Below, one piece after another: positions 2,460 to 41,947 of a stretch of 42,039 nucleotides of DNA. The stretch comes from a virus: the IMG/VR virus record IMGVR_UViG_3300044824_000031, positions 1 through 42,039 of that record; one strand, written 5' to 3'. Every line of letters begins with the position of its first letter. Position 1 is the first letter of the stretch. The translations under genes and the position numbers were made by a program. The notes under the pieces are model-generated. The model worked only from the letters and a program-made list of their open reading frames with translations. It did no database searches and was not told the DNA's origin.

Positions 2460-2601
2460 CACGCCGATTTCGCTTGCAATCCGGGGAGAATCGGCGCATA
2501 CTTTCTTTGTCGGGTGTCTTGAGCGGCGTCCGACACGGAAAGACCGGGCGCGGCGCGGTGCCTCCACATCGCGCCCACCGGCCATCCATGGAGGTGGATG
2601 A
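2460..2601 (+). promoter_or_regulatory. Short non-coding stretch before the YdaU-like gene; weak promoter candidate
   Basis: No convincing gene is visible here. TTGACA at 2456-2461 has no good -10 partner at 17 bases. TTGCAA 2474-2479 with TACTTT 2499-2504 is a poor promoter because the spacer is 19. GGAGG at 2590-2594 is the ribosome-binding site of the next gene. Confidence 0.25.
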
Positions 2602-11000: not shown

Positions 11001-11245
11001 ACGCCCGAGAGAAAGTCATCGAAGCCGAGCGCCAGATCCGGTGCCTGATCTCCGGAACGTCAAAGGAGATACAATGCCCGTTCTGCGGTGAGACTTCGAC
11101 CTCCGGCCAGGAACTTCTCTGCTGTGAGAATCTGTGCAACGTGGTAAATGCGGTTCTGGATTACGTGGACACCAGGGCGAACCTGGAAGTGGTTGACCGC
11201 GTGATGGACCGGCTCGCTGGGAAGAGCCAGGCGGTGCTGAATTGA
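10997..11245 (+). CDS. Small zinc-ribbon protein
   Basis: The product is 82 residues from ATG 10997. Residues 27-47 hold CPFCGE and then LLCCENLC, a plausible four-Cys zinc site. Helices flank it on both sides (EKVIEAERQIRCLI; ANLEVVDRVMDRLA). The stop overlaps the TTG start of the portal gene. It could be a head-assembly accessory or an unrelated small protein. Confidence 0.5.
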   Translation: MNAREKVIEAERQIRCLISGTSKEIQCPFCGETSTSGQELLCCENLCNVVNAVLDYVDTRANLEVVDRVMDRLAGKSQAVLN

Positions 11246-13527
11246 CGCCCCAGCCAATCGATGAGCTTTTCAGTCCTCCTAATGAAGGCCAGGACTCGGA
11301 ACGCGAAGCCCCGGAGGACGTTTCCGCCCCGCAGCGGCCACAGCCGCGCACCTATGGCGACGAAAACAAGGAACTCCCCGAGGAACTTCAGAACGCCGTC
11401 CTCGCGCTGCTTCAGGAAGCCCAACGGCAGGAACTCTACCAGCGGCGCATGGAAGTCATGCGGGCGCGCCGGAACCGATTCTATGAACGCGGACTCCAGC
11501 ACATTTACTACGACATCTTGAGCGGTGTTTTCGTCCAGGGAGCGCCGGGCCAGTTCGTTCCTGATAGCGGCCACGGCGAGATCCAGTGCGGCGAGTACAT
11601 CGAAGACTACAACATTTTTGCCCGCGCGCTGCAAATCATCATCGCCAAGTTGACCGAGAACCAACCTGGCATTGATTTCCAGCCGGACAGCGGGAATTCC
11701 CCTGTTGACCTACAGGCTTCGGACGCGGCGGAGGCGTACCGCATTCTCTACGACCGGAGGAACGATACTAAGGATCTACTCACTGCCATCGTGCGCATGA
11801 TGGGCCTCGACGGGCGCACCGTGACGTGGACTCGCACGATGGCGAATGAACAGAAATGGGGCACGGACGAAAACGGAGTACCGCGCCGGGTGCAGACCAC
11901 TTCAATTTACGGCGTTCTCGAAACTAAGGTGCCTATCGTCGCAAAGACCTTTGAAGAGTGGCCCTACTGCATCGTCACCGAAGATCCTCACGTCTACACT
12001 GCTCGGAAAGAACATCCCGACTTCGCTGACAAGATTGGCAAGTTCGGTGAGGAAGGAATTGCCGATACCCAGTTCGAGCGGTTGGCCAGGCTGGGAGCAC
12101 TTCAGGGGAACTCGGCGGCGTTCCAATTGACGGACACCTACGACCACTACACCGAGCGCAAATACTTCTTCTTTCGCCCGTCCATGCTGACCGATGAGGA
12201 ATTGGATTCGGCGTATACGGACGAAGTTCACCAAGCCGAACCTTGGACGCTTCGGGATGCGTTGAACGAAGCGTTTCCCAATGGCGGTGTGTTCATCTTC
12301 GTTGGGAAGCAATACGTCGGATCTCGTAACGTCTGCATCGACGATGAATTGAGCGTTGACTTCCCGTATGCTGGTGACGGCATGGCGCGCATGGCAGTTA
12401 TGGACCCGGCTGTGATCATCCAGGACCGTTTCAACAATGACATGAACCTGTATGCCGAATGGAAGGACTTCGGTTCACCTTCGACATGGCTCCGCGCCGG
12501 TCGAGCCCAGGTTGCAGCCGTCAATGGCCAGACCGCCGCGCCGTTCTGCTTCCGGCCGGCCATGGAACTTGAGGTTTTGCGTGACCGCCCTCTGGCCGAC
12601 AGTTTCTACCGTGAACCGAACCCCGAACTTCCCGAAACGTTCATCCGGCATACCGAGTATTTGGCGACTGCCCTTTTGCAGTACATTCTGGCGATTCCCT
12701 CCGCAGTCCAGGGAGCCGGGATGCCCGACCAGAAGACCAAGGGCGGCTACCAGGAGGCCATCTATCAGGCCATGGGGCAGTTGGGTGTGATATGGGGAGC
12801 CGTCCAAAGGTTGATGTCGAAGGTCTACCGGCAGGCGGCACTTGCTGCGGCGCGCGATGATAAGGAAGGAAAGCCGCTCATCATCCCCGGCCCAAAGGGT
12901 GCTGTGACATTGGACATCTCCGCTCTTGGCAAAGGGCACTTCCTGGCCCATCCCGACACGGACAGCGGCTACCCAGAATCCACGATGCAGAAGCGGGTCA
13001 CGTTGAATGGCATCTTGGAAATGGCGATGAAAGACCCGGTAATTGGGCAGGCGCTTCTATCGTCTCCAGACACCTGGGATTTCATCTTCAGGACGTATGG
13101 GGTGCCAGAGATCGTGATTCCAGAGGCGCGAGTGCGGCGCAAGCAGTCCGCAGAGATCGAGATGCTGATTCAGCAAAGCCCACAGCAAGGGCCGCCCGAT
13201 CCATTGACCGGGCTACCAGGCGCGATGGTTTCTTCCGTTCCTGTCGACCCCCTGGACTATCACGATTGGGAATTCGAGGAGTGCCGCGAGAAACTGTCCG
13301 ACTGGCCGTGGGTTCAGCAGCAGTTGACCGCCGGGAACGAAGCTGGTATTGAGAATATCCGGGCGCACGCCATGGAGCACCAAAAGTTCATGCAGCAGGC
13401 GGTTGAAGCGCAGCAGCAAGCGCAAGCAGCCGCGATTGCGGCCACAAATCCGAAGGCGACCGAGAGTTGGAAGCCTGAACTACCAAAAGAGGCTCCCGGG
13501 CCGCCAGCACAGGAGAACAATGCCTGA
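11242..13527 (+). CDS. Portal protein (P22-like)
   Basis: The product is 761 residues, the size of P22-type portals (about 725). It starts at TTG 11242 because the frame has no upstream ATG and the next Met would remove a conserved helix. After an acidic/Pro-rich lead comes the wing/clip region (QRRMEVMRARRNRFYERGLQ; ITANQ-like IIAKLTENQPGIDFQPDS). A central part follows with WPYCIVTEDPHVYTARKE and a stem-rich region with LPETFIRHTEYLATALLQYI. The C-terminus (from about 690) is a Gln/Ala-rich barrel-like helix (MQQAVEAQQQAQAAAIAAT). It forms the dodecameric DNA gate at one capsid vertex. Terminase is 2 kb upstream and scaffold and coat follow directly. Confidence 0.85.
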   Translation: MTPQPIDELFSPPNEGQDSEREAPEDVSAPQRPQPRTYGDENKELPEELQNAVLALLQEAQRQELYQRRMEVMRARRNRFYERGLQHIYYDILSGVFVQGAPGQFVPDSGHGEIQCGEYIEDYNIFARALQIIIAKLTENQPGIDFQPDSGNSPVDLQASDAAEAYRILYDRRNDTKDLLTAIVRMMGLDGRTVTWTRTMANEQKWGTDENGVPRRVQTTSIYGVLETKVPIVAKTFEEWPYCIVTEDPHVYTARKEHPDFADKIGKFGEEGIADTQFERLARLGALQGNSAAFQLTDTYDHYTERKYFFFRPSMLTDEELDSAYTDEVHQAEPWTLRDALNEAFPNGGVFIFVGKQYVGSRNVCIDDELSVDFPYAGDGMARMAVMDPAVIIQDRFNNDMNLYAEWKDFGSPSTWLRAGRAQVAAVNGQTAAPFCFRPAMELEVLRDRPLADSFYREPNPELPETFIRHTEYLATALLQYILAIPSAVQGAGMPDQKTKGGYQEAIYQAMGQLGVIWGAVQRLMSKVYRQAALAAARDDKEGKPLIIPGPKGAVTLDISALGKGHFLAHPDTDSGYPESTMQKRVTLNGILEMAMKDPVIGQALLSSPDTWDFIFRTYGVPEIVIPEARVRRKQSAEIEMLIQQSPQQGPPDPLTGLPGAMVSSVPVDPLDYHDWEFEECREKLSDWPWVQQQLTAGNEAGIENIRAHAMEHQKFMQQAVEAQQQAQAAAIAATNPKATESWKPELPKEAPGPPAQENNA

Positions 13528-32810: not shown

Positions 32811-35639
32811 ATGAAACGCTTGATCCTTCTCTCGCTGCTGCTCGCCCTACTCTACGCTCCGGCGTGGGGGCAGGTGCAGACGATCCCGGATACGACCTTT
32901 CCGCTGGTCCGCTCGATAATGAACGACAATTTTCTCTGGCTCAATTCCAACAAGGAGCCGAGCTTGGGAAATCCCTCAGTGAGTGGATATTGCCTTACCT
33001 CCACTTTTGGCGGAGTTCGGAGTTGGGTAGCCTGTGGCAGTGTCGCCAGCGTCTTTGGGCGCACGGGTGTGGTTGTAGCAGCGAGCGGCGACTACACCAC
33101 CGACCAGATCACCGAAGGAACGGCCCAGTTCTTCACAGCAGCGCGAGCTCAGGCGGCTCTCTCCGGGATGTATCAGACGCCGATCAGCGGGGCACCAGGC
33201 ACCTGGCCGACGTTGGGCACGGCGGCGGCGCACGCGGCTACGGACTTTCAGGCGGCGTTGGCAAACTACTCGACAATCAGCGGCCTGACTGGATACCCGA
33301 GCACCTTCCCGCCGACGAACTCTGGTGACTGGGCAGGAACTTGGCAGACGTACTCGCCAAGCTACTTCCAGACGGCGTTGGCAAACTACTCGACAATCAG
33401 CGGCCTGCCAGGATACCCGAGCACCTTCCCGCCGACGAACTCTGGTAACTGGGCAGGAACTTGGCAGACGCACTCGCCAAGCTACTTCCAGACGGCGTTG
33501 GCAAACTACTCGACAATCAGCGGCCTGACTGGATACCCGAGCACCTTCCCGCCGACGAACTCTGGTAACTGGGCAGGAACTTGGCAGATGTACTCGCCAA
33601 GCTACTTCCAGACGGCGATCAGCGGGGCACCAGGCACCTGGCCGACGTTGGGCACGGCGGCGGCGCACGCGGCTACGGACTTTCAGGCTGCGCTGGCCAA
33701 CTACTCTACGATCTCGGGATTGTCGGGGTATCCCTCGACGTTTCCGCCGACCACGAGCGGCGACTGGACAGGGACGTGGGGAACCCACGCGGCGAGCTAC
33801 TTCCAGACGGCCATCTCGGGAGCGCCGGGGACCTGGCCGACGTTGGGCACGGCGGCGGCGCACGCGGCTACGGACTTTCAGGCTGCGCTGGCCAACTACT
33901 CTACGATCTCAGGGCTGATGGGGTATCCCTCGACGTTTCCGCCGACCACGAGCGGCGACTGGACAGGGACGTGGGGAACCCACGCGGCGAGCTACTTCCA
34001 GACGGCCATCTCGGGAGCGCCGGGGACCTGGCCGACGTTGGGCACGGCGGCGGCGCACGCGGCTACGGACTTTCAGGCTGCGCTGGCCAACTACTCTACG
34101 ATCTCGGGATTGTCGGGGTATCCCTCAACATTTCCGACCAGCGGCGTATATCTCGCCTCGACTTATAACGTCGGATCAACCACTGGAGGACTCCAGGAGG
34201 CGGCGAACGCGATCCCGAGTTACGGATCTGGCATCATCCTGGTCACAACTCCGATCACCATGACCGGGCCTTTCGTGATGCCAGCTTCCAAAAACATCAC
34301 GATTCAGGGACCGGGGAGCGGTTATGACATCATCTTCCGTGATTCTGGCTTCACCACCGATCATCTGTTCAAAGTCAGTGGCGCCTCAATATGGGGCCTC
34401 ACTTTACGGAACATAGGAATACAGTCATATTTCTTTACCCAAACCAGCTCGGCCGCGCTCTGGGCTTCGCAGTGCGGTAACGGCAAGGTGGTGTTGGATG
34501 ATGTGGTGTTCTCTAATGGTAACATCGGGGTGTGGGATCAGGCGTGCATGATGATTGGGAGTTTCCAAGTAGAGATGGATGCGACCGCCTCTCCACAACC
34601 ATTTGCAGGCATGTATTTGCAGTCATACAACCCGAGCGGGACAGAGGAAACGACCAACATCTATCTGCACGATGTAATAATCGGCGGCGTTGAATCCTCT
34701 GCCTATGCTCCCCTGTACGGCATCATCACCGATGGTTCGGACGGGGTACTGATAAACGGGTTGAGCATTCAAGGGATTACAGACATTTGCGTAGCCCCGT
34801 TAACTTCCTATGTGGCGAACTGGAAGATTTCGCATATTGCGTCGGACGGTTTCGCGCAGATGGGCATTCAGCTATGGGGCACTGGGACTATTATAAACTT
34901 CGACGTAGACGGCGGATGGATGAATGGCCCCACTTCAACAAGCAGCCCCGATAATACTGCGCTGTCGATAGGGGGAGCGACTTCATCGGCCTCATTTTCT
35001 AACTTGCAATTGGGTGGATCATACAAAGGCTGTGTCCAAATCGGCCCATCAGGCACTCCCAGAAGTATCAAACTAGACAACATTGCTTGTCTTGATGGAA
35101 ACCAAAGCAATGATGCAGGAGCAGTTGGATCATCTGGCGTGTATGTGTCTGCGGGAATGTCCGGCTTGAACCTTAGCAATTTACGATTCTACAACACAAG
35201 CGGGACTGGGCATATAAAAACAGGAGTGTACGTTGCAGGCTCATTGGCCGACTCAGTAATAAATAGTCTGTCCTCCAATCTCACGGCAGACTCATCGACT
35301 GACCCGGCGATCTTTTGGGCATCGCCAAGCACCGCAACCAATGTGGTCGTTTCGGGTGTACAAGACACGAATCATCTCTTAAACATTCCGTTAGCAAGCA
35401 TTTCTGATGCCGCTACATTGGTATGGCCGAATTGGAATAGCTTTCTGATTACAGGCTCGGGAACGACGGTTACGGCAGTTACTATGACAAATGTTCAAGC
35501 AGGAGCAAGCGGAGTATTCAGAACAACTGGGGGAGCGATCACGTTTACTGCTGGAGGTGGGATTGGGAATACGATGACCACGGCTCAGAACGTGCCGGTG
35601 GTGTGGACATGGGATGGGAGCAGTTTGTGGCTGAAGTGA
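32811..35639 (+). CDS. Repeat-rich beta-helix tailspike with signal peptide
   Basis: The product is 942 residues from ATG 32811. Residues 1-21 are a signal peptide (MKRLILLSLLLALLYAPAWG). Residues 22-124 are a linker head-binding region. Residues about 125-442 are tandem repeats of two blocks: a 25-residue ISGAPGTWPTLGTAAAHAAT block and a 40-residue ALANYSTISGL / YPSTFPP / GTW / SYFQTA block. Residues about 445-850 show pectate-lyase-like beta-helix features (PFVMPASKNITIQGPGSGYD; IWGLTLRNIGIQSYFF). The last 60 residues (TNVQAGASGVFRTTGGAITF) look like a trimerisation tip. The protein probably binds and perhaps degrades surface polysaccharide. Confidence 0.7.
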   Translation: MKRLILLSLLLALLYAPAWGQVQTIPDTTFPLVRSIMNDNFLWLNSNKEPSLGNPSVSGYCLTSTFGGVRSWVACGSVASVFGRTGVVVAASGDYTTDQITEGTAQFFTAARAQAALSGMYQTPISGAPGTWPTLGTAAAHAATDFQAALANYSTISGLTGYPSTFPPTNSGDWAGTWQTYSPSYFQTALANYSTISGLPGYPSTFPPTNSGNWAGTWQTHSPSYFQTALANYSTISGLTGYPSTFPPTNSGNWAGTWQMYSPSYFQTAISGAPGTWPTLGTAAAHAATDFQAALANYSTISGLSGYPSTFPPTTSGDWTGTWGTHAASYFQTAISGAPGTWPTLGTAAAHAATDFQAALANYSTISGLMGYPSTFPPTTSGDWTGTWGTHAASYFQTAISGAPGTWPTLGTAAAHAATDFQAALANYSTISGLSGYPSTFPTSGVYLASTYNVGSTTGGLQEAANAIPSYGSGIILVTTPITMTGPFVMPASKNITIQGPGSGYDIIFRDSGFTTDHLFKVSGASIWGLTLRNIGIQSYFFTQTSSAALWASQCGNGKVVLDDVVFSNGNIGVWDQACMMIGSFQVEMDATASPQPFAGMYLQSYNPSGTEETTNIYLHDVIIGGVESSAYAPLYGIITDGSDGVLINGLSIQGITDICVAPLTSYVANWKISHIASDGFAQMGIQLWGTGTIINFDVDGGWMNGPTSTSSPDNTALSIGGATSSASFSNLQLGGSYKGCVQIGPSGTPRSIKLDNIACLDGNQSNDAGAVGSSGVYVSAGMSGLNLSNLRFYNTSGTGHIKTGVYVAGSLADSVINSLSSNLTADSSTDPAIFWASPSTATNVVVSGVQDTNHLLNIPLASISDAATLVWPNWNSFLITGSGTTVTAVTMTNVQAGASGVFRTTGGAITFTAGGGIGNTMTTAQNVPVVWTWDGSSLWLK
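33183..34136 (+). repeat. In-frame tandem repeats in the tailspike gene
   Basis: The block order is A-B-B-B-A-B-A-B-A-b, where A is 75 bases and B 120 bases. Three B copies in a row lie at 33258-33377, 33378-33497 and 33498-33617. A+B units of 195 bases lie at 33618-33812 and 33813-34007, and a shortened unit ends near 34136. The early and late B copies encode nearly the same peptide with different synonymous codons, while the second half of every A block is identical at DNA level. Confidence 0.8.
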
Positions 35640-38130: not shown

Positions 38131-38219
38131 CCCGCTGGAGGGGCGATCAAGCCGCCTGCGTCCGGTGAACGCGGCGGTCACGTCATGGACGGTAGCGAAC
38201 TCCAGCGGGCCATGTTTTT
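38130..38219 (+). terminator. Branched-stem terminator or structured RNA end
   Basis: An 11-bp perfect stem (38130-38140 with 38200-38210) is followed by CATG and a T-run (38214-38219). Its 59-base loop is not open: CCGCC-T-GCGT pairs with ACGC-GGCGG (38152-38161 with 38169-38177, one bulged T, 7-base loop), and CGTC/GACG (38181-38191) forms a second small arm. This gives a three-way junction closed by the terminator stem. It lies right after the last late gene and 4 bases before the next promoter. Confidence 0.65.
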
Positions 38220-38222
38220 CTG

Positions 38223-38251
38223 TTGACATCCCCCGCGCTCTGGCGGATAAT
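38223..38251 (+). promoter_or_regulatory. Strong sigma70-type promoter for the right-hand operon
   Basis: TTGACA (38223-38228), a 17-base spacer and GATAAT (38246-38251). Transcription should start near 38258. It lies directly after the terminator T-run, so the operon to the right is insulated from late transcription. It is the best match to consensus in the window. Confidence 0.75.
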
Positions 38252-38257
38252 GAGTTA

Positions 38258-38361
38258 GTTGTCGGGAGTCATGCCCCGGCAAAAGGAAAACCACAGCGGG
38301 GTGCCCTGAACACCCCGCTACCCTTTCAGGGAGGGTCGATGAAAACTCACCGACAATCCGA
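38258..38361 (+). ncRNA. Structured mRNA leader with pseudoknot (riboswitch-like, unclassified)
   Basis: The predicted transcript starts with the 5' strand of an 11-bp stem: TTGTCGGGAGT (38259-38269) pairs with 38345-38356, with one bulged A at 38349. Inside is a 9-bp hairpin, AGCGGGGTG (38295-38303) with CACCCCGCT (38311-38319). All seven loop bases, CCCTGAA (38304-38310), are complementary to TTCAGGG (38325-38331), giving an H-type pseudoknot. The 3' pseudoknot strand overlaps the AGGGAGGG ribosome site (38328-38335). An alternative hairpin (38335-38342 with 38347-38354) covers the ATG at 38339 and excludes the 11-bp stem. I do not recognise a known riboswitch class. Confidence 0.6.
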
Positions 38362-38365
38362 ATGA
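38339..38365 (+). CDS. 8-residue leader peptide (MKTHRQSE)
   Basis: The ORF has AGGGAGGG 3 bases upstream and stops in TGA overlapping ATG 38362 of the next gene. That gene has no ribosome site of its own, so its translation should depend on this peptide. The codons lie within the alternating stems of the leader RNA. It ends Ser-Glu, like three other micro-leaders in the window. Confidence 0.5.
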   Translation: MKTHRQSE

Positions 38366-39117
38366 AGCGGCTCCGAATCGTGCCGTGCTCACTGAGGCGC
38401 GCTAACGATTTCGTTGAGGCGTATCACCGCCATAACCGGCGAACGGCCCGTGACGGCGGAAAATTCGCCATCGCGCTGGCTGACGGAGACTTGGTGGTAG
38501 GTGTCGCCATCGTAGGAAATCCCCTTTCCGCCACATTCATGGACGGCTTCACCGCCGAAGTTCTGCGGACTTGCCTATCTCCCGACGCGCCGCGAAATGC
38601 CAACTCCATGCTATACGGAGCCTGCCGGCGCATCTGGTTTGAGATGGGCGGCGCGAAAATCGAGACCTACAATCTGCCTGAGGAGTCCGGCTCAAGCCTG
38701 AAGGGCGCCGGCTGGGTGTGCGCCGCGACCGTGAAAGGCCATGACGCCGCGACCTGGGGGAAACAAGACCACCTGAGAAGGCGAGAGCAGGCCATCATAG
38801 CGAAGGGAAAGCGCCGCTGGGAAGCGATCAACCCGGACGTGCTCACTGGAGCAGTGCAGTGGCCAGCGGCGCTCACTGAATTGTCCGGTACTGCTCAACT
38901 CGATTTTGAAGATTCAACGCTGCCGGTCTATAGCGATCCATTGGCCGGTAAGTCCGCAGCGAAAAATGGAGATTGCACCCAGCGGACGGGACCAGTTGAA
39001 GGGGAAGGAGCAAGGGGTAACAACCCTGCATCGCGGGAACCCAGCGGCGAATCGCCGTCAGCGGGGAAGCCTGGTGTGCAACCATCAGGCCAAATTCCTG
39101 AGAGGTCCGCCAAATGA
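38362..39117 (+). CDS. XF1762-family GNAT-like protein
   Basis: The product is 251 residues from ATG 38362 (ATGA coupling). Residues 1-150 follow the XF1762 pattern: RIVPCSLRRANDFVEAYHRH, FAIALADGDLVVGVAIVGNP, EVLRTCLSPDAPRNANSMLY, then KIETYNLPEESGSSLKGAGW and a Trp/Lys end. The family has a GNAT-like fold and is common in phages next to host-takeover or modification genes; its substrate is not known. The last 90 residues are a Gly/Pro/Ser-rich tail, probably disordered. As the first large gene after the structured leader, it is the likely regulated product. Confidence 0.7.
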   Translation: MKRLRIVPCSLRRANDFVEAYHRHNRRTARDGGKFAIALADGDLVVGVAIVGNPLSATFMDGFTAEVLRTCLSPDAPRNANSMLYGACRRIWFEMGGAKIETYNLPEESGSSLKGAGWVCAATVKGHDAATWGKQDHLRRREQAIIAKGKRRWEAINPDVLTGAVQWPAALTELSGTAQLDFEDSTLPVYSDPLAGKSAAKNGDCTQRTGPVEGEGARGNNPASREPSGESPSAGKPGVQPSGQIPERSAK

Positions 39118-39172: not shown

Positions 39173-39199
39173 TGCAGGAACAAGTCCGAAAATCAGGCG

Positions 39200-39205
39200 G
39201 ATAAT
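39200..39205 (+). promoter_or_regulatory. -10 box 6 bases before ATG 39212
   Basis: GATAAT (39200-39205) is the same hexamer as at 38246 and shares the preceding GGCG. It is followed by exactly 6 bases and ATG 39212. There is no -35 at 17 bases; TTGCAG (39172-39177) is 22 bases away. Activation by a protein bound to the direct repeats could replace the -35 contact. Confidence 0.4.
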
Positions 39206-39211
39206 CGGATT

Positions 39212-39652
39212 ATGGAAAACGAAATTGACCCCGCCGCGCACATAGAAGAGGCGATAGCCCGCCTGGAGAAGTCCGTCACCTACGCGCCGGAGTGCGAGGT
39301 GCGGGACGCTCAAACGGACCTCATCCGCGAAGTGCTGGACGAATGCCTGAAACCGGCGCTGGCGGAGATGGAGCGGCGCGAGAAGGCGGCCACGGTGCCC
39401 AACGAGACCGCGGCGAGCATGAGAACGCTCGGGCCGCTGATGGGCGTCATGCGACGGAAGACCTACGGCCTGCCGATTGTCGAGCAAAGCGAAGCCGCCG
39501 CCCTGCTTGACTCCGCCGCGCGCTCCCTGGTGGGCGGCGAGCCGGTCCTGGCGACGGCAGAGGAGATCAGCGAGGCACTGGCGTATCGCCACCGCGAGCA
39601 GGACGCCGCCGCGATGAAAGTAGGGCGGGCGGAAAGCATAGAGGAAAGGTAA
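39212..39652 (+). CDS. Hypothetical helical protein
   Basis: The product is 146 residues from ATG 39212, which has no Shine-Dalgarno and lies 6 bases after GATAAT. It is mostly charged helix (HIEEAIARLEKSVTYAPECE; LIREVLDECLKPALAEMERR). The C-terminal part has ATAEEISEALAYRHREQDAA. It lies in the operon that includes the annealing-protein candidate. No family is recognised. Confidence 0.5.
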   Translation: MENEIDPAAHIEEAIARLEKSVTYAPECEVRDAQTDLIREVLDECLKPALAEMERREKAATVPNETAASMRTLGPLMGVMRRKTYGLPIVEQSEAAALLDSAARSLVGGEPVLATAEEISEALAYRHREQDAAAMKVGRAESIEER

Positions 39653-41433: not shown

Positions 41434-41708
41434 AAAACAAATACGTGGTAGTGAGGACTTTCAGCGCGGGTGTCCACTGTGGCACCCTCGTTTCGCAAAA
41501 CGGCAAGGAAGTTTTGCTCAAGAACGCACGCCGGGTGTGGAAATGGACCGGCGCGTTCACGCTGAGTGAACTATCGCAGATAGGCATCTCAGGAGGTCGC
41601 GTGTCCTGCACCGTGCCAACGATTGCGCTCACCGAGGCAATCGAGATCATCCCCTGTTCAGCCGATGGCAAGAAATCGCTCTTGAACATCGCGGAGTACA
41701 GGCCGTGA
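41430..41708 (+). CDS. DUF6948-family protein
   Basis: The product is 92 residues from GTG 41430 with AAGGAG 5 bases upstream. The pattern KNKYVVVRTFSAGVHCGTLV, then GKEVLLKNARRVWKWTGAFT, then EAIEIIPCSADGKKSL is that of DUF6948, a small all-beta phage protein family of unknown role. It is complete. The stop overlaps the start of the Gly-rich repeat protein. Confidence 0.7.
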   Translation: MKNKYVVVRTFSAGVHCGTLVSQNGKEVLLKNARRVWKWTGAFTLSELSQIGISGGRVSCTVPTIALTEAIEIIPCSADGKKSLLNIAEYRP

Positions 41709-41947
41709 ACGTCAATGACGGCGACGGCTCCGGCGACGGCGACGGCGACGGCTCCGGCGACGGCGACGGCTACGGCTACGGCGACGGCTACGGCTCCGGC
41801 TACGGCTCCGGCTCCGGCTACGGCGACGGCTACGGCTCCGGCTACGGCTCCGGCTCCGGCGACGGCTACGGCTCCGGCGACGGCGACGGCTCCGGCTACG
41901 GCGACGGCTCCGGCTCCGGCGACGGCGACGGCTACGGAATAGGATAG
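41705..41947 (+). CDS. Gly-Asp-Ser-Tyr dipeptide-repeat protein
   Basis: The product is 80 residues from GTG 41705. After MNV it alternates Gly with Asp, Ser or Tyr in nearly perfect register (GDGSGDGDGDGSGDGDGYGY and onward) to GYGIG. Every repeat codon ends in C, so the DNA is a tandem array of GGC-GAC, GGC-TCC and GGC-TAC hexamers. Such tracts occur in phage and bacterial proteins and are thought to be flexible, possibly calcium-binding or phase-separating. It is polar and disordered. The DNA is prone to slippage, so length probably varies between isolates. Confidence 0.6.
   Translation: MNVNDGDGSGDGDGDGSGDGDGYGYGDGYGSGYGSGSGYGDGYGSGYGSGSGDGYGSGDGDGSGYGDGSGSGDGDGYGIG
41709..41940 (+). repeat. 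Hexameric GGC-NNC microsatellite
   Basis: The array consists of about 38 hexamers of form GGC(GAC/TCC/TAC) and is the most repetitive DNA in the window. It encodes the Gly-Asp-Ser-Tyr protein and would change length in steps of two residues without breaking the frame. Confidence 0.85.

Follow-up and report, generated by a model that had tools for sequence, protein, structure and literature searches.

In plasmid switches of the repZ type, the loop of a hairpin base-pairs with a strand close to the gene start, and a competing hairpin takes part in the switch. In phage T4, the gene 32 leader has its pseudoknot 5' of the ribosome site, and this pseudoknot nucleates binding of the gene 32 protein. 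Pseudoknots over the Shine-Dalgarno sequence are also usual in small riboswitches. According to work cited in PMC10724649, the rep leaders of IncI, IncB, and IncL/M plasmids, including ColIb-P9, use a repZ/repA pseudoknot switch. In the com/mom system of phage Mu, a leader hairpin (the translation inhibition structure, or TIS) hides the start signals, and a second hairpin adjoins it (PMC6483171).

We analyzed a window of 42,039 nucleotides of viral DNA, the whole stretch under study, which carries a structured leader at positions 38258-38361, 5' of a gene for a Mom-like protein. The elements of this locus are as follows.

38223..38251, plus strand: sigma-70-type promoter TTGACA-17-GATAAT (11/12 consensus matches)
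38259..38282, plus strand: P1, the 5'-terminal hairpin TTGTCGGGAGTCATGCCCCGGCAA (fold, -11.7 kcal/mol)
38259-38269 with 38345-38356, plus strand: 11-bp stem, 5' strand TTGTCGGGAGT, bulged A at 38349, 3' strand present in the mom copy only
38285..38294, plus strand: linker GGAAA-ACCAC upstream of P3 (sequence)
38295..38319, plus strand: P3, a 9-bp perfect hairpin (fold and motif scan)
38304..38310, plus strand: P3 loop CCCTGAA, pairing with 38325-38331 across the Shine-Dalgarno strand
38320..38336, plus strand: P4, the local hairpin ACCCT[TTCAGGG]AGGGT (loop in brackets), which holds the Shine-Dalgarno sequence (fold)
38339..38365, plus strand: predicted 8-codon leader open reading frame MKTHRQSE, its stop overlapping the mom start (ATGA)
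38362..39117, plus strand: Mom-like DNA modification protein of the XF1762 family, PHROG 1384 (NF045478, E 4.7e-42; phrog_1384, E 4.5e-27)

The initial annotation had described three helices in this leader, namely, the 11-bp stem, the P3 hairpin with its loop pairing, and a hairpin at the start codon, and all three are present at the coordinates given here; P1 and the second Shine-Dalgarno hairpin, P4, were absent from that description. The leader as a whole is unusually stable, with a folding z-score of -3.4 and none of 200 shuffles equally stable. The claim that a 7-base loop is fully complementary to a strand over the ribosome site is borne out: TTCAGGG (38325-38331) is the full complement of the P3 loop, lies 5 nt past the hairpin, overlaps AGGGAGGG, and is exactly the loop of P4. 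This complementarity is what sets the leader apart: shuffling (1,200 shuffles) predicts 0.0025 perfect 9-bp hairpins with seven loop pairs per 42-kb strand, and the window has one, in the mom leader.

The 11-bp stem had been proposed as part of a switch, and it is indeed rarer than chance: in 1,500 dinucleotide shuffles of the leader, no stem of at least 11 bp arose at equal distance, and 0.2% of genomic windows had one. However, P1 outcompetes it in a pseudoknot-free model (mean pair probability of 0.74 for P1 and 0.22 for the stem). In four of the five leaders described below, its 5' strand goes into the local P1 hairpin, and neither the stem nor the start-codon hairpin has a counterpart in the four other leaders compared. 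The start-codon hairpin (38335-38342 with 38347-38354; -5.2 kcal/mol) is likewise real as a predicted helix, pairing seven of its eight positions with an A.C mismatch on the A of the ATG, but it is found only in the mom copy and is not conserved. Since both helices are confined to this copy, neither is the conserved switch, and the 11-bp stem was accordingly rejected as the basis of one.

The pairing between the P3 loop and the Shine-Dalgarno strand recurs in four more leaders: one before a replication gene of the window itself, one in the near relative G001, one in the distant relative L084, and one in L102. The second copy in the window is made up of the following elements.

2474..2502, plus strand: promoter TTGCAA-17-CATACT (sequence)
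2508..2535, plus strand: P1, an 11-bp hairpin (fold)
2552..2575, plus strand: P3, loop CCTCCA
2583..2600, plus strand: P4, CATCCA[TGGAGG]TGGATG, whose loop complements the whole P3 loop
2602..3444, plus strand: replication gene, primosomal/replication initiation protein (phrog_9327, E 8e-22), with a DUF1376 match below the Pfam cut-off

In G001 (L019/L083, 5022-5068), loop CCCTTAA faces strand TTAAGGG before a gene that has no family match and is assigned to replication by position only. Loop TCCTAT and strand ATAGGA precede a replication initiation gene in L084, and loop CTCTCT and strand AGAGAG precede a VapE helicase gene in L102/L297. The replication genes under the copies thus differ (phrog_9327, phrog_3926, and VapE, PF05272, E 5.6e-65), and profile matches confirm them for three copies. 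All five leaders lie 3' of promoter-like sequences. Just past the promoter, TGTCGG forms the 5' strand of P1 in four of the five (the mom leader, window position 2508, L019 position 4984, and L084 position 7252). Linker GGAAA is common to the mom leader, the window replication copy, and G001, and ACC[AG]C is common to the mom leader, G001, and L084; the L102 copy has no P1 and none of TGTCGG, GGAAA, and ACC[AG]C. The G001 and L084 leaders were found by a structure search that used P3 and the pseudoknot and made no use of P4. The second window copy was examined for its position and its TTGTCGG, and its P4 was noticed afterwards. L102 was found with descriptors that had P3 and loop complementarity among their requirements; selection therefore accounts in part for its pairing.

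The common order is P1, P2, P3, P4, with P1 and P2 each in four of the five leaders and P3 and P4 in all five. The P2 strands read GCCGGG/CCCGGC in G001, TGCGG/CCGCA in L084, CCGG/CCGG in the second window copy, and GCATCGGC/GCCGATGC in L102; in the mom copy, both are missing together. In every leader, the strand that complements the P3 loop makes up the whole loop of P4. The hairpin itself varies: besides the two window copies, it reads GCCCT[TTAAGGG]AGGGT in G001, ACCCC[ATAGGA]GGGGT in L084, and CACCC[AGAGAG]GGGTG in L102. The Shine-Dalgarno sequence sits in the P4 loop or stem, 1 to 6 nt 5' of the start codon, in all five copies.

To assess covariation, P3, P4, and their loops were put into a condensed alignment, with spacers omitted, loops trimmed to 6, and columns chosen by structure; all 95 pair cells are standard, and 17 of the 19 pairs are changed on both sides. 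Two of these five leaders come from the window and one from its close relative G001, so that three derive from two closely related phages. Slid control alignments were 42 to 59% paired, and MAFFT alignments of whole leaders misplaced P3. Several of the pairs are G.U, standard in plus-strand RNA only. Compensatory changes in all three helices had been named as what would support the initial annotation; they are seen in the loop/Shine-Dalgarno helix, but the 11-bp stem and the start-codon hairpin lack counterparts. When P3, P4, loop complementarity, and a start were required together, 20,031 sites, which contain some redundancy, yielded four distinct replication leaders, and the mom leader had an equal score; one further match, in L101, is low-complexity and false. 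Shuffles gave 3 motif matches in 120,168, i.e., about 0.5 expected.

Rfam 15 has no family at gathering score for the mom leader, in agreement with the earlier impression that it does not resemble familiar riboswitch classes, and permissive Rfam scans gave sub-threshold, chance-level matches only. Exact DNA patterns for the leader and pseudoknot found nothing in viral contigs. blastn against the phage collection gave no match or chance matches and no close DNA match; a match in Pam3 was rejected, as its sequence lacks the fold. No such leader precedes the related replication genes of cultured phages, and the TGTCGG..CCGRCA hairpin pattern revealed no obvious additional leader over 50 related records. 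Loop-loop matches in L101, L144, L007, L145, and L045 fall within coding sequence or repeats and were discarded. Structure descriptors found the element in none of the mom-like loci scanned (58 viral and 3 genome). The initial annotation had viewed the leader as a control of the XF1762-like gene; since the other mom-like loci examined lack the element and its usual neighbors are replication genes, it is not specific to XF1762.

Two looser structures were also encountered. L143 (8100-8225) has a pseudoknot-only version before a phrog_9474 replication initiation gene: a long hairpin with loop TACCTCATG, then CATGAGG downstream at the ribosome site, and no clear P4. L085 (8875-8911) has a 9-bp hairpin whose 7-nt loop GTAGCTC is complementary to GAGCTAC 5 nt on, again with no P4, before a tyrosine-recombinase-like (integrase-like) gene; about 0.15 such pseudoknots are expected by chance over the scanned sequence, and this one may be a chance match.

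We consider it probable that the element exerts cis-acting translational control in the mRNA, with phage replication genes as its usual targets and, here, the mom cassette as an additional one. A constant leader with changing downstream genes counts for this reading. The general claim of the initial annotation, a structured leader acting on translation initiation, thus finds support, and its core appears to be the pairing of the loop with the Shine-Dalgarno strand. The pairings suggest that the Shine-Dalgarno sequence would be hidden either locally by P4 or by the P3 loop in the pseudoknot. A closed P4 together with a complete loop-loop helix would be sterically hard, so two alternative states are likely; as P4 begins 0 to 5 nt after P3 or P2, both can hardly form fully together, and the leader is probably bistable. 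The default would probably be low translation, with opening by a trans-acting factor (a phage or host protein, an RNA, or a ligand) or through RNA dynamics. Replication genes would be plausible targets in that their dose and timing matter, and the mom copy may serve to avoid the harm that Mom does, as in phage Mu, when it is made early or in excess. Overall, the leader looks like a previously undescribed RNA element of this and other uncultured phages that would control when these genes are translated. A bolder proposal, which we put forward tentatively and with some doubt, is that the matched-loop hairpins define a new class of phage RNA switch, a bistable Shine-Dalgarno lock through which one trans-acting factor times unrelated replication families and a Mom-like modification in one phage.

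The pseudoknot could instead be the ON state, as in ColIb-P9 repZ: P4 would hide the Shine-Dalgarno sequence, P3-loop pairing would open P4 and free part of that sequence, and the P3 loop could also be bound competitively by an antisense RNA. A replication gene lies 3' of four of the five copies, and the P3 and P4 loops match exactly, as this account expects. Nevertheless, we regard it as unlikely. In the pseudoknot, Shine-Dalgarno bases are themselves paired (the whole TGGAGG in the second window copy); loop pairing should therefore hide rather than expose them, and a consensus scan of the mom leader region found no nearby minus-strand promoter. A metabolite- or ion-binding riboswitch with P1, GGAAA, and ACC[AG]C in its binding site would account for the recurrence of these non-helix parts and of TGTCGG, and for a pseudoknot over the Shine-Dalgarno sequence of the kind small riboswitches usually have. 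We judge it quite improbable, given that L102 lacks P1 and these motifs, that no known class matches, and that replication and Mom-like genes suggest no common metabolite.

The hairpins might also serve the DNA rather than the RNA, as a single-strand replication signal (primosome assembly or origin hairpins) in the replication leader that was copied to mom. Phage origins are often found in or near initiator genes, and strong hairpins do precede replication genes here. This explanation is very improbable, however, because P4 ends 1 to 6 nt before the start with its loop or stem forming the Shine-Dalgarno sequence in all copies, the element begins at the predicted 5' end of the transcript, G.U pairs are used, and the element also stands before mom. 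Two further readings were considered and set aside: a plus-strand terminator or attenuator, for which there is no T run 3' of P3, and an operator half-site at TTGTCGG, of which further promoterless instances occur elsewhere in the window.

Cis-acting translational control, the reading we prefer, places the leader near several known systems. Like Mu com/mom, it has a Mom-type gene downstream, in one of the five copies, and a leader hairpin next to a second hairpin; in silico, P4 and the start-codon hairpin are predicted to hide start signals as the TIS does. Unlike Mu, it has an 8-codon frame, loop-loop complementarity, and Shine-Dalgarno pairing, and a matching element also stands before replication genes; the Com zinc-finger gene (PF10122) is absent from the window and its relatives (G000, G001, G009, and G028). 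The repZ-type leaders likewise have a replication gene downstream, a loop that pairs with a strand near the ribosome site, and a competing hairpin. The present element differs from them in the Shine-Dalgarno bases of its pseudoknot strand, in having no known antisense RNA, and in belonging to a phage rather than a plasmid. Its rep copies have no leader peptide, the gene starting directly after P4, and the short coupled frame is found only in the mom copy. By analogy, the leader would work much as those of Mu com/mom and plasmid repZ do, yet it belongs to neither group: it lacks Com, its rep copies carry no leader peptide, and an antisense RNA is not known for it. PreQ1 and SAM-II riboswitches are similar in their short leader and pseudoknot over the ribosome site, whereas here there are two hairpins with matched loops and no meaningful Rfam match. 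T4 gene 32 is comparable in that a leader pseudoknot controls translation of a replication-related phage gene, although the pseudoknot there sits 5' of the ribosome site.

The element adds a covariation-supported leader RNA to phages with little known regulatory RNA. One fold before different replication genes suggests conserved translational dosing of phage replication, and its use at mom may offer a second way, without Com, to reach the kind of translational control known from Mu. The matched loops allow a sharp mutational test.

Translation of mom is probably coupled to the 8-codon leader frame, given the ATGA overlap and the lack of a Shine-Dalgarno sequence of its own. In 41 of the 50 other mom-like loci, a putative upstream open frame likewise runs as far as the mom start, although such overlap is common in compact phage genomes. 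The near relative G001, with a portal 97% identical over the best segment, has neither mom nor the mom leader at the corresponding place. An inverted repeat, CCCGCTGGAG...CTCCAGCGGG, lies at 38131-38209 and is followed by TTTTT near 38214; it is probably a terminator of the upstream lysis-side genes that would insulate the mom cassette. Because of its own promoter, its absence from G001, and this upstream terminator, mom looks like an inserted cassette. The portal-like gene at 11242-13527 is up to 97% identical in eight IMG/VR contigs (loci L007-L014), which form a widespread phage group with swapped accessory genes.

Several minor features were noted in the window. The 10-mer GGCGGATAAT of the mom promoter (38242-38251) recurs at 39196-39205 and nowhere else in the window, and this second site precedes a gene at 39212 inside a short region conserved in G001. 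Read on the minus strand (38293-38321), the mom P3 resembles a weak terminator-like hairpin with tail GGTTTTCCTT, a T-rich tail not present in the other leader copies. About 90 C-terminal residues of the Mom-like protein (38845-39117), rich in S, G, P, and K, form an extension outside the family profiles. A low-complexity Gly-Asp/Tyr/Ser repeat frame (GDGDGSGYG...) occupies 41705-41947, and repeated modules YSTISGLxGYPSTFPPTxSG... lie at 33200-34150 inside a long tail-fibre-like frame (32811-35639).
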